Shown here piece after piece: positions 2 through 13,184 of a DNA stretch of 13,298 nt (position 1 is its first letter; each line of letters opens with the position of its first letter). The position numbers and the translations under genes are program-made. The stretch is from contig PHAM01000051.1 of assembly GCA_002841685.1 (NCBI GenBank), forward strand, positions 1 through 13,298, read 5' to 3'. Origin of the DNA: Elusimicrobia bacterium HGW-Elusimicrobia-2 (lineage in GTDB: Bacteria; CG03). The notes under the pieces are model-generated. The model was given only the letters and a program-made list of their open reading frames with translations, did no database searches and was not told where the DNA came from.

Positions 2-3000
2 TGCGAAGAAGGCGAAAATGTAATTAAATATTACAGCGTTGATGTCATCGGGAATACAGAGGCGGAAAAAACACTTTCGGTGATTGCGGATTTCAGCGCG
101 GCGGAGACGGGAGTTTTAATTTCAGCTCCGGTATATGAAAATTACATCACATCCCGGATCTCAATCACTTTAATCGCGGAAGATAAGGGTGTAATTCCAA
201 GCGGCGTGAAGGAAACGAAATATTCAATCAGCCAATCCCCTTTTATCGGTTACGATTCTCCATTTACCATTTCCGGCGATGACGGAATCTATACCGTAAA
301 TTATTACAGCGCCGACAATGTTTTGAATGCGGAAATTGTAAAATCAATAACGGTCAAACTCGATAACAGCCCGCCGGAGACTGAGATCATCGCCGGATTA
401 CCGCAGTATATAGCTGATAATAGAATCTATATTTCACCACGCGCAGAGATAGAATTGGCCGCGACAGATCCTTCCGTGAATGAAGCGGCTGCCGGGCTTG
501 AAAATATCAGATACAGAATTGACGGCGGAGAGTGGAAGATTTACACGGGCACATTTACGCTGACTGAGGGGGTAAGAGCGATTGAATATTACGCGACCGA
601 TAATATCGGTAATGCCGAAGAAATTAAAGCCCAAATTTATTATGTTGACGACACGGCGCCTGAAACTTCAATTGCAATTAGTCAGCCGAAATATTTACCT
701 GACGGCAGTATATACATCACATCGTCGGCGGAGATAACGCTTTCGGCAATTGATCCCGTCGCAGAGAATGTGTCGTGCGGAGTGGCTCTGACAAAATACA
801 GGATATTGAGCAGTACGGGAATTTATGAGGACTGGCGGATAGATGAATCAATTAATATTACCGGTCCCGACGGAGTTTATACGATAGAGTATTACAGCAT
901 TGATAATCTTGAGAATACTGAAATCGTCAAATCAATCACGGTGAAACTGGATAACACACAGCCAATAACGACAATTACCGCGGGAGAACCGAAGTATGCT
1001 TCGGGTGAGAGGGTTTATATAACGTCGCAGACAGAAATAGTTTTAACAGCCGAAGATCCTATCGTAAATGGAGTTGCCTGCGGAGTGTTATACACAAAAT
1101 ACAGAATAGACGGAGGCGGCTGGATAGTATATCAGACGGAGCAAGTCCCGCTATTGCAGGAAGGAATCCGTAAAGTGGAATATTGCAGTATTGACAACCT
1201 TGGCAATAAAGAAATAACAAGGGAACAGGTTTATTATGTCGATGCTACGGCTTCGTTAAGCAGTCTTGCTCTCGGTGAGCCGTTCTGCGCGAGTCACAGT
1301 ATTCCGGGCGTAGAGCATTCAACGGCGGTGGTCAGTTCGCTGACGCCGCTAACCATTACTGCGATTGACCCTGTAATAAAAGAAGTTGCTTCGGGAGTGA
1401 AGGAAATTAAATGGCGTATAGCAGGTGGCGGCTGGCAGACCGCTTCTTCAGCGGTTGCCGTTTTTCAGATAGAAGATACATTTGCCGACGGGGAATATAA
1501 AATTGAATATTACAGTGCCGACAATCTGCTGAACACGGAGCCTGCGAAAGACAGGACGGTGATACTGGATAACACAGCGCCGGAAGTTTATTTAATATTC
1601 CCGTCAACGGCGAATACGGGGCTGTGTCAGATGATAAACGGAACGGTGACGGTCAGGGGGACTGTGACGGATCCTCATTTGAAATATTTCAATTTGGATT
1701 ACAGGGCATATAACGGGACTGTCTGGCAGACGGCTGTCAGCACAAAAGAGATAATTGTTGAAAACGGGGATTTAGGCGAATGGAATACCGCGGGGCTTGA
1801 TGACGGCTGGTATGTGCTGAGGCTTCAAGCCGTTGACTGCGTGAACAATGCTTCGGAGACGGAGGTTGAAGTTTATGCGGGACAGCCGTATAAACTGATG
1901 GAAATAGGAAGTAAGGGCAAAGGGGACGGCGAATTTAATCATCCCGGATATGCGGCAATAGATGAAGACGGCGGAATTTATGTCAGTGATACGGAAAACG
2001 GGAGGGTGCAGAAATTTTCTTCCGGCGGAGAACATTTATTGACTTTCGGAAAAGGGATATTGAATGAGCCTACGGGTATAGCCGTGGATAACGCGGGGAT
2101 GGTGTATATAGCTGACCGAAATAATGACAGGGTGGTGAAAATAGAGCAAACGTCAAATGACAGCTGGCAACTAGTCGGTGAGATAACGGGTTTGAACAAG
2201 CCGCACGGGATTTGTGTATCAAGCGGACTGATATATATAGCGGACAGAAATAACGACAGGATACAGGTTTATGATTCGGCGCTTGCGCGCGTGGCGGAGA
2301 TAGAGACGGGAATAGAGGTGGAGCTGAATAAGCCGCAGGGCGTTTTCGCGGTTAAAGACGGGGAAATATATATATCGGACAGGAATAATGACAGGGCGCT
2401 GGTGTTGAGTTCAACGGGCAGTCTGAAACAGAAGATAGAAGGGTTTAACAAGCCCGACGGCGTGGCATTAGGCGGGAGAGGATTTCTTTTTGTGAGCGAC
2501 ACGAATAACGATAAAGTTAAAATGTTTACGCCGGAGGGCGTCCTTGCCGCGGTTACTGACGGTGATTTCAATAAGCCGGGGGGCGTCGCTGTTTTTAACG
2601 GTGAGTTGTATGTGGTGGACAGTTTGAACGACAGGGTTGTTAAATACGGGGCGCCGCCAAAGGATATGAGCGGCGGGCGTACGGTAATGGTTTTGGGAGC
2701 GAAGCGGCAGAATTCAACCCTCGCGGTGTTTGAGCTGAAAGAGGTTTACGCATACCCGAACCCGGCGAAGAGAGTCAATCCGAAAATACACTTTGACTGC
2801 GGGGTTTCTGACGCATCAGTTAATCTCAGAATATTTACGATAGCGGGTGAGCAGGTTTTCGGATGCGATATGTCAAATAATTATGTCGCGGCAAAGAACG
2901 CTTATGAATATGAATGGGACAGCACAGGGAAAGCCAGCGGCGTGTATATATATCTGATAAAAGCGGATAGAAACGGCGTTAGCCTGAAGAAGACAGGAAA

Positions 3001-3019
3001 GATGGCGGTGATAAAATGA
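2..3019 (+). CDS. Secreted surface protein: OmpL47-like Ig repeats, NHL propeller and FlgD/T9SS-like C-terminal domain (5' partial)
   Basis: The first usable start in the window is a GTG at 80, but the same frame is open upstream to base 2 and encodes another copy of the repeat hallmark (YYSVD..GNTE), so the gene begins outside the window and the GTG is not its start. In order it shows: five tandem 95-110-residue repeats (about 107-1573) with YRIDGG.W and EYYS.DN..N.E motifs, as in OmpL47-type Ig-like domains; a sixth Ig-like domain (about 1577-1880); six NHL repeats (about 1905-2650); a linker; and a C-terminal domain from about 2744 that begins YAYPNPA and ends GVYIYLIK...GKMAVIK. That last domain resembles FlgD-Ig (PF13860) and type A T9SS sorting domains. 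The protein is probably exported and surface-attached or released, with an adhesive or ligand-binding role. No catalytic motif is visible. Its stop overlaps the next gene by ATGA. Exact function is unknown. Confidence 0.88.
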   Translation, partial: CEEGENVIKYYSVDVIGNTEAEKTLSVIADFSAAETGVLISAPVYENYITSRISITLIAEDKGVIPSGVKETKYSISQSPFIGYDSPFTISGDDGIYTVNYYSADNVLNAEIVKSITVKLDNSPPETEIIAGLPQYIADNRIYISPRAEIELAATDPSVNEAAAGLENIRYRIDGGEWKIYTGTFTLTEGVRAIEYYATDNIGNAEEIKAQIYYVDDTAPETSIAISQPKYLPDGSIYITSSAEITLSAIDPVAENVSCGVALTKYRILSSTGIYEDWRIDESINITGPDGVYTIEYYSIDNLENTEIVKSITVKLDNTQPITTITAGEPKYASGERVYITSQTEIVLTAEDPIVNGVACGVLYTKYRIDGGGWIVYQTEQVPLLQEGIRKVEYCSIDNLGNKEITREQVYYVDATASLSSLALGEPFCASHSIPGVEHSTAVVSSLTPLTITAIDPVIKEVASGVKEIKWRIAGGGWQTASSAVAVFQIEDTFADGEYKIEYYSADNLLNTEPAKDRTVILDNTAPEVYLIFPSTANTGLCQMINGTVTVRGTVTDPHLKYFNLDYRAYNGTVWQTAVSTKEIIVENGDLGEWNTAGLDDGWYVLRLQAVDCVNNASETEVEVYAGQPYKLMEIGSKGKGDGEFNHPGYAAIDEDGGIYVSDTENGRVQKFSSGGEHLLTFGKGILNEPTGIAVDNAGMVYIADRNNDRVVKIEQTSNDSWQLVGEITGLNKPHGICVSSGLIYIADRNNDRIQVYDSALARVAEIETGIEVELNKPQGVFAVKDGEIYISDRNNDRALVLSSTGSLKQKIEGFNKPDGVALGGRGFLFVSDTNNDKVKMFTPEGVLAAVTDGDFNKPGGVAVFNGELYVVDSLNDRVVKYGAPPKDMSGGRTVMVLGAKRQNSTLAVFELKEVYAYPNPAKRVNPKIHFDCGVSDASVNLRIFTIAGEQVFGCDMSNNYVAAKNAYEYEWDSTGKASGVYIYLIKADRNGVSLKKTGKMAVIK
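107..1573 (+). repeat. Five tandem Ig-like (OmpL47-type) protein repeats
   Basis: The repeats begin near 107, 369, 656, 956 and 1247, with a partial preceding copy at the left edge. Each runs from a PPET.I or equivalent turn, through Y.TS...I.L.A.DP, a G(V/L)...KYRI core and YYS.DN..N.E, to a (K/Y)VDxT closing strand. The copies differ by many substitutions and by length, so they are old duplications under protein-level selection and not fresh DNA repeats. Confidence 0.8.
1905..2650 (+). repeat. Six NHL repeats, predicted six-bladed beta-propeller
   Basis: Blade signatures follow N(H/E/K)P.G.....G.(I/L)YV(S/A)D..N.R(V). They lie near 1933, 2066, 2195, 2327, 2447 and 2570. Three central blades carry the identical hexapeptide DRNNDR in different codons. 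Six copies match the standard count for one closed NHL propeller, a fold that usually binds protein, RNA or carbohydrate ligands. The ligand here is unknown. Confidence 0.82.
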
Positions 3020-3969
3020 CGGACAATAAAATGAGAATAATCAAGATCTGTTTTTTAGCCGCCGCTGTAAATTTTTTACTATTGACCGGCGCACCTCTTT
3101 CCGCGGAGACGGGAAAAAGCGGAGCTTCGTTTCTGAAGATAGCGCCGACGGCGGGTTCGGAGGCTATGGGCGGAGCTTATACGGCGGCGGCATCCGGCAT
3201 AGGGGCGCTGTATTATAATCCGGCAGGGATGGTTTACGGGAGACAGACGCAGGCGGGATTTACGCACACGGCCTGGATACAGGGAATGACTTATGATTTC
3301 GCTGGAAGCATTGTTCCTGTTATGTGGGGCAATCTGGGCATATCAGTAATATCCATGAGGAGCGGCGAAATAGACGGCAGGGACAGTGACGGCAGTAAGA
3401 CCGCTGATTTTGAGAGTTCCGATACGGCGTTTACGGTATCGGCTGCGAGGGAATTGAACGGTAAAAATATGCTGGGCGTCAATGTGAAGTTCATAAGGCA
3501 GACGATAGCCGATGAGAGCGCAGAAGGATTCGCCGTAGATATGGGGGCGATGAGAGCGCTGACGGATAAAGTGTCAGTCGGACTGAGCGTAAGAAATCTC
3601 GGGCCGGATATGAAATTCATAGAGGAGAAATATCCGCTTCCCCTGACATTCACGCTCGGGGGGATGTTCAAATTTGCGGGAGTGTTCGGATTGACGGCGG
3701 ATATGGCCTATGAGCCGGTGGATGAGAAGAAGACATTCAGGATGGGTATGCAGCTTGCTCCGGCGAGATTCATGGTTCTGAGGGCGGGCTATATGATGAA
3801 GGCGGTGTCGGCTGTTTACGGCGATACGGAATCAGACGACTTCGACGACGAGGAGGGAATCGGCGGCGGCGTTGGCTTTAACTTTGGCTCCTACGCTCTT
3901 GACTACTCGATAAAGCCGTATGCCGATCTCGGTACTTCACAAAGGGTGAGTTTCAGGGTAGGGTTTTAA
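3016..3969 (+). CDS. PorV/PorQ-family (UPF0164) outer-membrane beta-barrel protein
   Basis: A 317-residue protein with an N-terminal signal peptide: basic MRIIK, then a hydrophobic run, with likely cleavage after Ala30 (PLSA before ETG). The mature start FLKIAPTAGSEAMGGA followed by GALYYNPAGM (residues 39-72) is the hallmark of the PorV/PorQ/UPF0164 family, which are FadL-like outer-membrane barrels. The protein ends in alternating aromatic/polar residues with a terminal Phe, the usual BAM recognition pattern. In type IX secretion PorV carries C-terminal-domain cargo to the attachment complex. The upstream gene ends in such a domain and overlaps this start by ATGA, so the two are probably co-translated. 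ATG 3031 (Met6) would give a tidier signal peptide but lacks a Shine-Dalgarno. Specific function beyond the family is inference. Confidence 0.85.
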   Translation: MTDNKMRIIKICFLAAAVNFLLLTGAPLSAETGKSGASFLKIAPTAGSEAMGGAYTAAASGIGALYYNPAGMVYGRQTQAGFTHTAWIQGMTYDFAGSIVPVMWGNLGISVISMRSGEIDGRDSDGSKTADFESSDTAFTVSAARELNGKNMLGVNVKFIRQTIADESAEGFAVDMGAMRALTDKVSVGLSVRNLGPDMKFIEEKYPLPLTFTLGGMFKFAGVFGLTADMAYEPVDEKKTFRMGMQLAPARFMVLRAGYMMKAVSAVYGDTESDDFDDEEGIGGGVGFNFGSYALDYSIKPYADLGTSQRVSFRVGF

Positions 3970-4052: not shown

Positions 4053-4068
4053 CGGGGTTTTAACCCCG
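4053..4068. repeat. GC-rich palindrome in the rpmE 5' UTR
   Basis: CGGGGTT and AACCCCG form a perfect 7-bp inverted repeat around a 2-base centre. It is flanked by an imperfect direct repeat: GTGTTGTAGG at 4043-4052 and GTGTTTAGG at 4068-4076. The second copy runs into the rpmE Shine-Dalgarno. It could be an operator, an RNA hairpin affecting L31 translation, or a short dispersed repeat. No T-run follows, so it does not look like an intrinsic terminator. Confidence 0.6.
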
Positions 4069-4088
4069 TGTTTAGGAGACATAATAAT

Positions 4089-4397
4089 ATGAAAGACAAA
4101 ATACATCCGGACTACAAGCCGGTGAAGGTTATATGCACTTGCGGAAACACCTTTGAGGTGCGGTCCACTATGGGAACGGACATAAGGCTGGAGATATGTT
4201 CGGCCTGCCATCCTTTTTTCACGGGGAAACAGAAACTTATCGATTCCGTGGGCAGCCTCAGCAAGTTCGAGAAGAGATACAAAAAAACCGCAGGGCAAAC
4301 GGTCAGGGTGAAACCTAAAAAAGCGATGAAGAAAAAAACCGCGGTCAAAAAAACAAAACCCGCCCCTAAAAAGAAAATTTCCCCCGACGAAGAATAG
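4089..4397 (+). CDS. rpmE: Large ribosomal subunit protein bL31 with Lys-rich C-terminal extension
   Basis: A component of the 50S subunit that bridges to the 30S head. The start at ATG 4089 is preferred over an upstream in-frame GTG (4068) because AGGAG at 4074-4078 sits 10 bases before it and the protein then starts MKDKIHPDY, matching the family. It is the zinc-binding (C+) form: Cys16, Cys18, Cys37 and Cys40 are all present (CTCGN and CSACHPFFTGKQK). The protein is 102 residues long against a usual 65-75. The extra part (about residues 76-102) is rich in Lys, Ala and Pro, resembling histone-tail-like extensions, and ends acidic (SPDEE). It is the first gene of the operon; prfA follows after 12 bases. 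Confidence 0.95.
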   Translation: MKDKIHPDYKPVKVICTCGNTFEVRSTMGTDIRLEICSACHPFFTGKQKLIDSVGSLSKFEKRYKKTAGQTVRVKPKKAMKKKTAVKKTKPAPKKKISPDEE

Positions 4398-10379: not shown

Positions 10380-10741
10380 TAGCGAAACATATTATGACAA
10401 CAAATGTTGAAACCGTTACGCCGGAGACGCCTCTGGCTGATGCGGTTAACATGTTGCTGATGAGGGAAATCAGCGGCATGCCTGTTGTTGACGGCGAAGG
10501 CCGTCTGATGGGCGTGGTTTCCGAGAAAGATGTTTTTCGACTCGCTTTCAGCGGCAAAATTCACGAATCAAGAGTCGCGGATGTGATGACGACAAAAGTC
10601 GTCTCTTTCCCGCCTGACGCCGATATCAGGGATATCGCGAAAGTCCTCGGTGAAAACGTTTTCAGGACAGTCCCTATTTTAGAAGACGGAAAGATTATCG
10701 GCATTGTTTCAAGAGCCGATATTCTGAAAGTCGCGCTATAG
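10376..10741 (+). CDS. Two-CBS-domain protein
   Basis: A 121-residue cytoplasmic protein made only of two CBS motifs: roughly residues 1-60 (IMTTNVETVTPETPL...GMPVVDGEGRLMGVVSEKDV) and 67-121 (VMTTKVVSFPPDADI...TVPILEDGKIIGIVSRADIL). Such Bateman modules bind adenine nucleotides or SAM and regulate partners. There is no fused enzyme, DNA-binding or membrane domain, so the target is unknown. A strong GAGGTGAGG lies just upstream of the ATG. It overlaps hisI by ATGA, which makes it the last gene of the histidine block. Its stop shares the palindrome CTATAG with the stop of the convergent gene. Confidence 0.9.
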   Translation: MIAKHIMTTNVETVTPETPLADAVNMLLMREISGMPVVDGEGRLMGVVSEKDVFRLAFSGKIHESRVADVMTTKVVSFPPDADIRDIAKVLGENVFRTVPILEDGKIIGIVSRADILKVAL

Positions 10742-11503
10742 AGAAAAAGTTTTTTTTATTTTCTTTAAAACGTTCCGCGGCTTTTTAAGCAGATCTTCTT
10801 CGGATATTCTTATGATTTTCCAGCCGAGTTTTTTCAATTCCTCATCCCGCAGTTTATCTTTAATGCGCTGCTGCTTCCGCGAGTGCCAGCGGTATCCGTC
10901 ACATTCCACGTCTATCGGTTTCGGACTGCCGCCCAGGGCGAAATCCAGACGGTATATTTTAGCGTTTTTTCTTTTTACAACAAATTCTCTTTTAAAGGGT
11001 ATTTTGTTTTTTGTGAGCATCGCCGCCAAAATGTTATCCATTGGCGGAATATCAAAAAGTCCCCGGATATTTCCCGCTCTCCGCAGTTTCGGAAGTGATG
11101 TGAAGCCGAATGAAATTCTGACACGGCCGCTATTTAAAACCGGTTTCCGCAGTTTGCTTATGCGGCCCAGAAAAAATTGCAGATAAAGTTTATCTGCGCG
11201 GGGATGATTTTTTTCTCCGGGGAGTATTTCTTTTCTTTTTTTCAGCCGCCAGTATTTTATATGCCCGTAAAGTTCTATTTTTTCGCCCGAATCTTTAAAT
11301 ACGGCAGGCTGGTAAAAAGCCAGAAATTTTGGTTTTCTCCGGGGAGCGTGCTCAAGCGGAATTCTGTACCATTTTTCTTCAAGGAGGATTTCTTTGTCCC
11401 GCTTTGTTTTGAGGACGCATACAAGAACATCGGGCCTTTGTTTTTTCACAAGGAAATTATAGTAAACAAACCGCCGCCCTTTCAAGGGATTGTTCAAATA
11501 CAT
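10736..11503 (-). CDS. WYRIP-domain/DUF559 fusion: putative Vsr-like endonuclease
   Basis: The C-terminal part (about residues 160-255) matches DUF559/very-short-patch-repair-type PD-(D/E)xK nucleases: YRLDF with Asp187, then IDVECDG with Glu200 and Asp202, His207, a LRDEELKKLGWKIIRI helix-strand, and a Lys-rich end. The N-terminal part (about 26-148) holds KRDKEIL...KWYRIP...FLAFYQPAVF...IELYGHIK, a compact beta-rich region seen by memory with similar nucleases and vaguely like PUA/EVE-type folds; its function is not established. ATG 11503 has no Shine-Dalgarno. A strong promoter inside this end predicts transcription starting at the in-frame GTG 11449 (Val19), which may be the true start (237 residues). 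The gene is convergent with the histidine block and overlaps it by 6 bases. Stand-alone nuclease activity is inference. Confidence 0.8.
   Translation of the reverse strand: MYLNNPLKGRRFVYYNFLVKKQRPDVLVCVLKTKRDKEILLEEKWYRIPLEHAPRRKPKFLAFYQPAVFKDSGEKIELYGHIKYWRLKKRKEILPGEKNHPRADKLYLQFFLGRISKLRKPVLNSGRVRISFGFTSLPKLRRAGNIRGLFDIPPMDNILAAMLTKNKIPFKREFVVKRKNAKIYRLDFALGGSPKPIDVECDGYRWHSRKQQRIKDKLRDEELKKLGWKIIRISEEDLLKKPRNVLKKIKKTFSL
11456..11485 (-). promoter_or_regulatory. Predicted promoter of the DUF559 gene, leaderless geometry
   Basis: On the minus strand TTGAAA (plus 11480-11485, five of six) is followed by an 18-base spacer and a perfect TATAAT (plus 11456-11461). Seven bases beyond the -10 is plus 11449, the G of an in-frame GTG. 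This would give a leaderless mRNA and shorten the protein by 18 residues. Confidence 0.5.
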
Positions 11504-11628: not shown

Positions 11629-12267
11629 ATGAAGAAAGATATTGTCGTTTTATTTTCGGGCGGCGTTGACAGCGTCGCTGCCGCGCTTTATTATATCATC
11701 AAAGGGCTCAGTGTCCATCTGCTGACTTTTGACAACGGCGCCGAGAGCCACTTGGAAAAATCCGAAAACAAGGCGAAGGAGCTGAAATTAAAATATCCCG
11801 AAGCCCTCGTGTGGTCGCTTGGAAATTCTCAACGGCTTTTTCAGAAGCTCGCTTTAAAAAATCTGGAAAAAGATGTTAAAAAATATGGGAACCTTATATG
11901 CTGCGGGTGCAAGATGGCAATGCTTGCTGAGGCGCTGATATATTGCCGGAAAAATAAAATAAAGTTTATAGCTGACGGCTTTAGGAAGGAGCAGGGATAT
12001 TATCCGGAGCAGACGCGGGGTTATATGGATGTCGCGTCGGAACTCGCGGAGAGCTTCGGCGTAAAATATGAGCATCCCGTGTATAATGTGAAGCTATCCG
12101 GGATAAAGAAACTTATTAAAAAAGCGGGAATAAGCGCTGTTCCCTCACAGGCTTCGTGCTTGTTTGCGTTCAACAGGGTGACAAATGATATGATATGGGA
12201 GTACACGGCGCTGAAAGCGAAGGCCGTGAAAAAATATGTAAAAGGAAAATCAGGCGGACAAAAATGA
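11629..12267 (+). CDS. PP-loop ATP pyrophosphatase of unassigned family, cysteine-containing
   Basis: A 212-residue cytoplasmic protein of the adenine nucleotide alpha-hydrolase fold. The PP-loop S10-GGVDS15 follows the first strand, as in ThiI, MnmA, QueC and TilS enzymes, which adenylate a substrate before thiolation or amination. It has Cys91-Cys92-Gly-Cys94 after the third strand, then IADGFRKEQGYYPEQTRGY, then Cys177 in SQASCLF. A mid-chain cysteine plus a distal one is the layout of sulfur-transferring or Fe-S-dependent tRNA thiolases. It lacks the QueC C-terminal zinc cluster. GAGGGAG (11609-11615) precedes the ATG. It overlaps cysK by ATGA, which supports a link to cysteine-derived sulfur. 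Substrate unknown. Confidence 0.82.
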   Translation: MKKDIVVLFSGGVDSVAAALYYIIKGLSVHLLTFDNGAESHLEKSENKAKELKLKYPEALVWSLGNSQRLFQKLALKNLEKDVKKYGNLICCGCKMAMLAEALIYCRKNKIKFIADGFRKEQGYYPEQTRGYMDVASELAESFGVKYEHPVYNVKLSGIKKLIKKAGISAVPSQASCLFAFNRVTNDMIWEYTALKAKAVKKYVKGKSGGQK

Positions 12268-13184
12268 AATTAGCGAAGAATGTTTTAACTCTTGTGGGGA
12301 ATACCCCTATGGCTGAGCTCCGCAATTTGGGGAAAGATCTTCCGGGGCGCGTTCTGGCGAAGCTGGAATATTTTAATCCCGGCGGCAGCATAAAGGACAG
12401 GATAGCGCTTTACATGATAGAAGACGCCGAAAAAAGAGGTCTTTTAAAAAAAGGCGGCTTCGTCGTGGAACCCACCAGCGGCAACACGGGGATAGGCCTT
12501 GCCATGGTGTGCGCCGTTAAAGGTTATTCTTTGACAGTGACCATGCCGGAATCGGCAAGCGAAGAGCGAAGGAAATTTATAAGTTCTTTCGGCGCGGAAG
12601 TTATACTTACACCGGCGTCCGGCGGAATGAGAGAGGCCATAAAGAAAGCGGAAGAGTTGTCGAAAAAAACAAAAGGCGCTTTTATGCCGCGGCAGTTTGA
12701 AAATCCCGCTAACCCGGATGCCCACAGAAAAACCACGGCGGAAGAAATATGGACAGATACGGACGGTAAAGTTGATATTGTTGTCGCCGGAGTGGGAACA
12801 GGCGGGACAATAACGGGGATAGGTGAAGCTCTTAAAAAAAGAAAACCGTCATTGAAAATCGTGGCGGTGGAGCCAGCTTCATCTGCTGTTCTCTCGGGAA
12901 ACAAGCCTGGCCCTCACACCATAGAGGGAATAGGCGCCGGTTTTATACCGAAGGTGCTCAACAGAAAAATTATTGATGAGATAATAAAGGTTTCCGACGA
13001 GGAAGCGAAGCGCACCGCCCGCGCGCTGGCGGAGCAAGAGGGTATTTTTGCGGGCATATCGTCCGGCGCGGCCGCGGCCGCCGCTTTGATTCTAGCCGGC
13101 AAAGAGGAAAACCGCGGAAAATGCATAGTGGTGATCTTCCCCGATTCGGGAGACAGGTATATTGCGGGCGGGCTTTTTTCGTAG
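12264..13184 (+). CDS. cysK: Cysteine synthase (O-acetylserine sulfhydrylase)
   Basis: A PLP-dependent enzyme that makes cysteine from O-acetylserine and sulfide. The start is ATG 12264, not the in-frame ATG at 12195, because MKLAKNVLTLVGNTP matches the family and AGGCGG lies just upstream. PLP Lys44 is in NPGGSIKDR; the substrate loop PTSGNTG, the phosphate loop GTGGTITG, GISSGAA and the C-terminal PDSGDRY are intact. Length is 306 residues, typical for CysK/CysM. It overlaps the PP-loop gene by ATGA. CysK versus CysM cannot be settled without alignment, but length and motifs favour CysK. Confidence 0.93.
   Translation: MKLAKNVLTLVGNTPMAELRNLGKDLPGRVLAKLEYFNPGGSIKDRIALYMIEDAEKRGLLKKGGFVVEPTSGNTGIGLAMVCAVKGYSLTVTMPESASEERRKFISSFGAEVILTPASGGMREAIKKAEELSKKTKGAFMPRQFENPANPDAHRKTTAEEIWTDTDGKVDIVVAGVGTGGTITGIGEALKKRKPSLKIVAVEPASSAVLSGNKPGPHTIEGIGAGFIPKVLNRKIIDEIIKVSDEEAKRTARALAEQEGIFAGISSGAAAAAALILAGKEENRGKCIVVIFPDSGDRYIAGGLFS

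Follow-up and report, generated by a model that had tools for sequence, protein, structure and literature searches.

The PP-loop protein encoded at positions 11629–12267 (+) of the window, which is the whole 13,298-nucleotide stretch of Elusimicrobia DNA that was analyzed, belongs to the YcfA/TgsB fold family and probably performs ATP-dependent sulfur insertion into a small molecule, as judged from its sequence and predicted structure. The YcfA fold, together with a conserved cysteine triad lying on the cluster ligands of LarE and TtuA, makes this chemistry likely. In other bacterial groups, relatives of the protein are encoded inside the operon of a molybdenum hydroxylase, and the enzyme may thus help to build a sulfur-bearing metal site. 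It is tentatively interpreted as a YcfA-type, LarE-like sulfur insertase that serves this hydroxylase and perhaps sulfurates its cofactor; this is quite possible, short of probable, and the target is a guess.

The PP-Loop Gene and cysK in the Window

The window covers contig C91 in full; the assembly to which it belongs has 1.78 Mb and is 96% complete, and the view of the neighborhood stops after cysK. The open reading frame of the PP-loop gene is real, as described earlier, and its assignment is supported by the structure match to YcfA and by a clade of ten orthologues. Its product of 212 aa carries the motif SGGVDS at residues 10–15 (11656–11673, +), which is predicted to bind ATP. The cysteines are Cys91-Cys92-Gly93-Cys94 (11899–11910, +), Cys106 (11944–11946, +) and Cys177 (12157–12159, +); Cys106 was missing from the earlier list. 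The stop codon TGA overlaps the ATG of cysK in the sequence ATGA (12264–12267, +), an overlap that had been reported before and is confirmed here, and translational coupling of the two genes is likely from this arrangement. The cysK gene (12264–13184, +) encodes an ordinary cysteine synthase A of 306 aa, which passes the NCBIfam equivalog TIGR01139 (432 bits against a cutoff of 351).

Positions 10736–11503 (−), which separate the his genes from the PP-loop gene, encode a 255 aa protein with a C-terminal MTES_1575/DUF559 endonuclease domain. The window also encodes a ribosomal protein L31 whose C-terminus is extended by a lysine-rich stretch (4068–4397; 109 residues, with the domain reaching to residue 72) and an NHL-repeat protein of 979 aa with a weak match to a type IX secretion tail (80–3019).

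Placement in the YcfA/TgsB Family

The structure of the PP-loop protein was predicted with a pLDDT of 92.7. Its best fold match was YcfA (Z 31.3, rmsd 1.3 Å over 208 residues), and the next matches were ThiI (Z 18.1), LarE (14.8) and QueC (13.9); TtuA and MnmA are also similar in fold. Among solved structures, the closest by sequence is 9kq6 (E 1.2e-22), the YcfA of Erwinia amylovora, which was determined with GTP and ATP, and the profile alignment of the PP-loop family with YcfA gave an E-value of 1.3e-47. Matches to designed PPR proteins, obtained in the initial PDB search, were discarded as chance hits of the repeat type. YcfA, together with the PLP enzyme YcfC, leads to 6-thioguanosine (PMC6225789), and the gene for its staphylococcal counterpart TgsB shares the tgs operon with that for a SufS-like enzyme (PMC7994395); the tgs operon locus examined here is L093. 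The protein is alike to YcfA and to TgsB of Staphylococcus chromogenes in its whole-length fold, the SGGxDS or TGGxDS motif, Cys106, the conserved Gln128 and its size, whereas the identity is only about 28–30%. The preliminary description had called this PP-loop ATPase unassigned, a label that is wrong because the protein falls in the YcfA/TgsB fold family. Its suggestion of a sulfur-insertion enzyme is well supported by YcfA as the nearest characterized relative and by the cysteine triad. The best characterized match is thus a sulfur enzyme, and not a non-sulfur PP-loop family.

The statement that the protein matches neither QueC nor full-length MnmA and ThiI was accurate only in part. The Pfam QueC model (PF06508) was passed with 37.3 bits against a gathering score of 22, and Pfam ThiI was passed with 28.8 against 20.5 bits. 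On the other side, the NCBIfam QueC equivalog TIGR00364 was failed (38.9 bits against a cutoff of 150.3), as were the curated full-length cutoffs of MnmA (14.6/14.2 against 284/237) and ThiI (30.2 against 264.5), and the C-terminal four-cysteine motif of the QueC homologues (L007–L009) is absent from the PP-loop protein.

A tRNA thiolation enzyme would agree with the resemblance in fold to ThiI, MnmA and TtuA, and with the presence of MnmA in the same cluster in G001, annotated by eye. A tRNA target is nevertheless highly improbable, since the protein, at 212 aa, has no THUMP domain, zinc finger or other RNA-binding extension. The terminal zinc-finger domains of TtuA/NcsA are absent: the only cysteines are 91, 92, 94, 106 and 177, and the SGG motif already stands at residue 10. 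The unmet MnmA and ThiI cutoffs and the linkage to a hydroxylase described below also argue against it.

Conserved Cysteines and the Candidate [4Fe-4S] Site

Among the 35 family members compared, G11, G12, D14 and S15 are kept in all, Cys91 and Cys177 are present in 32, and Cys94 is missing from one further member. The three members without the triad Cys91/94/177 are exactly the 6-thioguanine-type branch (L093–L095), in which the triad positions are occupied by L, D or E, and S, while Cys106 is retained in all three. Aligned YcfA shows the same pattern at the triad and Cys106. In the ten close orthologues, SGGxDS, Cys91, Cys92, Cys94, Cys106 and Cys177 are all invariant, and Cys92 is specific to this subfamily. 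Because this invariance extends over several phyla, the motif and the cysteines are not a matter of chance; a lack of conservation among orthologues, which had been named as an argument against the sulfur reading, is not seen. This family survey suggests that the LarE-like cluster motif is ordinary in YcfA-type enzymes and missing from the 6-thioguanine branch.

When the family was aligned by hhalign with 15 LarE sequences taken from the surveyed genomes (E 1.8e-15), CCGCK fell on CYYCK, and Cys177 on the LarE cysteine 172. TtuA-type sequences align likewise in a profile–profile comparison (E 6.7e-9). In Thermotoga maritima LarE, Cys92, Cys95 and Cys172 bind a [4Fe-4S] cluster, which is needed in sulfur transfer and carries the transferred sulfur (PMC9283937), and NcsA has the same three-cysteine arrangement (PMC10067955). 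It is predicted from the alignment, on which the spatial clustering of the residues rests, that Cys91, Cys94 and Cys177 hold a [4Fe-4S] cluster, in line with the earlier remark that the arrangement is compatible with an Fe-S cluster. Cys106 may be a persulfide carrier, considering its conservation and its alignment to YcfA.

The likeness to the [4Fe-4S]-type LarE of T. maritima consists of SGGxDS followed by CXXCK...DG...C, and LarE is a small-molecule sulfur insertase for a cofactor, comparable to the role predicted here. The PP-loop protein differs in that its Z score to LarE is only 14.8, its score is far under the NCBIfam LarE cutoff (TIGR00268, 9.2 against 150 bits), and the C-terminal part of LarE is lacking. 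With the tRNA thiolases TtuA and NcsA it shares the aligned three-cysteine cluster motif, but neither the N- or C-terminal zinc fingers nor any RNA-binding architecture.

The cysteines would be structural, as zinc ligands, if the protein were a QueC- or amidotransferase-type PP-loop enzyme that inserts nitrogen. The Pfam QueC score above the gathering score is in favor of this, and we consider it improbable: the fold is much closer to YcfA (Z 31) than to QueC (13.9), the QueC equivalog cutoff is not reached, the triad lies on the cluster ligands of LarE and TtuA, and the neighbors are sulfur genes (cysK, cysE, nifS and metX in the genus, SufS-like genes in the wider family).

Orthologues and Distant Relatives

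Two of the three other genus members (G001 and G003), as well as G009 from the same phylum, have orthologues with close to 50% identity. A scan of genome contigs with the single protein recovered no relative. With a four-member alignment as the query, eight loci (L023–L030) were recovered from 84,980 species genomes, with hosts in Elusimicrobia, Auribacterota, a Verrucomicrobia bin and other phyla; L023 and L024 are apparently the G009 and G001 contigs. The window gene and its orthologues form one clade of ten with support of 95/95.

Distant relatives (25–37% identity) are scattered across other genomes, with up to five copies per genome, and copies of this wider family adjoin SufS-like PLP genes, an arrangement also seen in the tgs operon. 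Cys91/94/177 are absent from the 6-thioguanine branch, in whose staphylococcal operon PLP, NUDIX and efflux genes are found, whereas the window clade is a separate branch that has kept the triad and neighbors a molybdenum hydroxylase or cysK.

Several further loci were observed. Distant YcfA-type PP-loop genes recur next to a SufS-like PLP enzyme in L018, L099, L103, L105 and L106 (absent in L100), and in L018, L099, L100, L103 and L106 they form a recurrent set with a protein of about 120 aa starting with MxCCG or MxxCCG. The 6-thioguanine-type PP-loop gene is found on plasmids of Alicyclobacillus acidoterrestris (L094, 3989–4699), together with NUDIX, DMT transporter and HAD genes, and of Vibrio coralliilyticus (L095, 4037–4699).

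Association with cysK within the Genus

In all three genus genomes with the PP-loop gene, cysK is nearby on the same strand, and it is directly adjacent in two. The PP-loop gene is followed by cysK in the window and in G001, where cysE, nifS, iscU and mnmA lie beyond (annotated by eye). The order in G003 is OAH sulfhydrylase, cysK, metX, metW, PP-loop and XdhC N-domain. A second, divergent PP-loop gene of G003 (L016, 6079–6771) and a similar copy cut off by the contig end (13–420) both flank the cysteine/methionine cluster. The survey of gene neighborhoods with cysK, which had been proposed in the preliminary description, revealed that the coupling to cysteine synthase is specific to the genus of the window (3/3); cysK is near none of the seven orthologues outside it, where a molybdenum hydroxylase is the neighbor instead.

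The identities of the PP-loop protein and CysK are 51% and 58% between the window and G003, 52% and 63% between the window and G001, and 70% and 68% between G003 and G001, while other sampled proteins of the window genome (G000) and G003 are mostly 85–99% identical. The two proteins are similarly distant in all three comparisons. It therefore seems that their genes were exchanged as a unit, and this supports a functional connection between them in this genus. Two small MoaD/ThiS-like proteins encoded close to the PP-loop gene in G001 and L025 were considered as sulfur carriers and dismissed, as no NCBIfam model matched and they did not recur.

The shared strand of cysK in the three genomes and the matching divergence of the pair would both suit a general sulfur insertase of cysteine/methionine biosynthesis, to which the molybdenum link elsewhere would be secondary. 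There is little to recommend such a role when cysK is absent near the seven orthologues outside the genus and an XdhC domain lies within the G003 cluster itself.

Linkage to a Clade of Molybdenum Hydroxylases

Outside the genus, each of the seven orthologues (G009 and L025–L030) lies 3′ to the genes of a xanthine-dehydrogenase-type molybdenum hydroxylase, always of the same clade and on the same strand, within about 1.3 kb of the gene for the 2Fe-2S subunit. The large subunits are 71–75% identical to that of G009 and keep the GxGE active-site Glu motif; the L025 contig ends before the large subunit. In L028, a cytosine-deaminase-like amidohydrolase is encoded between the 2Fe-2S subunit and the PP-loop protein. 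MocA and XdhC follow the PP-loop gene in G009. In G003, an XdhC N-domain follows it and the hydroxylase is elsewhere in the genome. The window genome encodes the same hydroxylase on contig C56, as a trio of amidohydrolase, large and small subunits (68–78% identical to G009), with no PP-loop gene there, and also an ordinary XdhC. In L025, two apparently unrelated genes (1479–3406; one DNA methyltransferase-like, by eye) separate the PP-loop gene from a second, divergent hydroxylase set with MocA and XdhC.

Among 386 diverse genomes, the hydroxylase clade is present in seven and the close PP-loop protein in four, all of which are among the seven. Counted by genus, both genera with the PP-loop protein fall within the 4 of 329 with the hydroxylase, a chance of about 1e-4 by simple counting, although shared ancestry or co-transfer weakens this figure. 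No PP-loop gene was found in G002, G224 and G028 (assemblies 86–99% complete) despite the hydroxylase clade; thus, the PP-loop protein is not always needed.

SelD above cutoff is absent from G000, G001, G003 and G009, the genomes with the PP-loop gene that were searched for it, and is present in three other members of the phylum. A sulfur rather than a selenium ligand is therefore expected, and a selenium role, raised by YqeB-/YqeC-like genes in G009 (by eye), was rejected. Replacement of LarE, considered because no LarE above cutoff was found in G000, was set aside since G009 has both LarE and the PP-loop gene.

Proposed Role

In the proposed mechanism, SGGVDS would bind ATP and adenylate an oxygen on the target. 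The fourth, open iron of a [4Fe-4S] cluster on Cys91, Cys94 and Cys177 would carry the incoming sulfide, which would be resupplied by a cysteine desulfurase, and Cys106 may receive the persulfide. The sulfur source would be cysteine, in this genus probably from the neighboring CysK. The target would most likely lie in the xanthine-dehydrogenase-type hydroxylase system; the best guess is its cofactor, with conversion of Mo=O to Mo=S or a change at another cofactor site, together with XdhC and MocA. To our knowledge, no PP-loop enzyme acts on a metal-oxo group, which counts against this target.

A PP-loop sulfurase dedicated to the molybdenum cofactor of xanthine-dehydrogenase-family enzymes, and dependent on ATP and a [4Fe-4S] cluster, would be a third route to Mo=S beside XdhC/cysteine desulfurase and CoxD; this stronger proposal is rather doubtful. 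In its boldest form, the pterin carbonyl of the cofactor would be thiolated. Pterin and the guanine substrate of YcfA have a 2-amino-4-oxopyrimidine unit in common. CoxD performs ATP-dependent molybdenum sulfuration, with the source of sulfur open (PMC4240915), and by analogy this precedent counts for ATP-dependent molybdenum sulfuration by a PP-loop enzyme. In the standard route, XdhC and a cysteine desulfurase suffice in Rhodobacter (PMC2997495), and the ordinary XdhC in the window genome counts against the need for a PP-loop enzyme. Compared with XdhC plus NifS4 and CoxD, the predicted client belongs to the same enzyme family and an XdhC gene or domain is adjacent in two genomes, but the protein families differ. 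No PP-loop enzyme was found described for those systems in the openly licensed literature that was searched. The same literature yielded no description of a PP-loop protein with a molybdenum hydroxylase or xanthine dehydrogenase, nor of a role of the YcfA-type family in such a system.

The strongest competing explanation is that a nucleobase- or nucleotide-like metabolite is thiolated, in the manner of YcfA/TgsB, in a pathway of the amidohydrolase and the hydroxylase, in which the hydroxylase would act upstream or downstream and not be the client. YcfA, the closest protein in fold and sequence and solved with GTP and ATP, acts on guanine nucleotides, and LarE likewise acts on a free mononucleotide (PMC9283937). 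The cytosine-deaminase-like amidohydrolase in the hydroxylase operon fits a nucleobase pathway, and the hydroxylase of G028 is beside a BMP-type substrate-binding/ABC transporter set (by eye). The substrate of YcfA and the type of amidohydrolase speak against the cofactor. MocA and XdhC after the PP-loop gene in G009, and the XdhC domain in G003, whose hydroxylase genes lie at another place, speak against the metabolite, and no 6-thioguanine-type NUDIX or efflux genes were seen beside the PP-loop gene in the ten-member clade. The metabolite reading is on the whole unlikely, while deserving serious consideration.

For the delivery of the essential sulfur ligand to molybdenum, the outline of a route with XdhC and a cysteine desulfurase has been established, and an ATP-dependent process is known for CO dehydrogenase. 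A PP-loop sulfur insertase encoded within hydroxylase operons would, if true, represent a separate and testable chemistry for molybdenum sulfuration. If the target is a metabolite instead, the protein would point to a new thio-nucleobase in uncultured bacteria.
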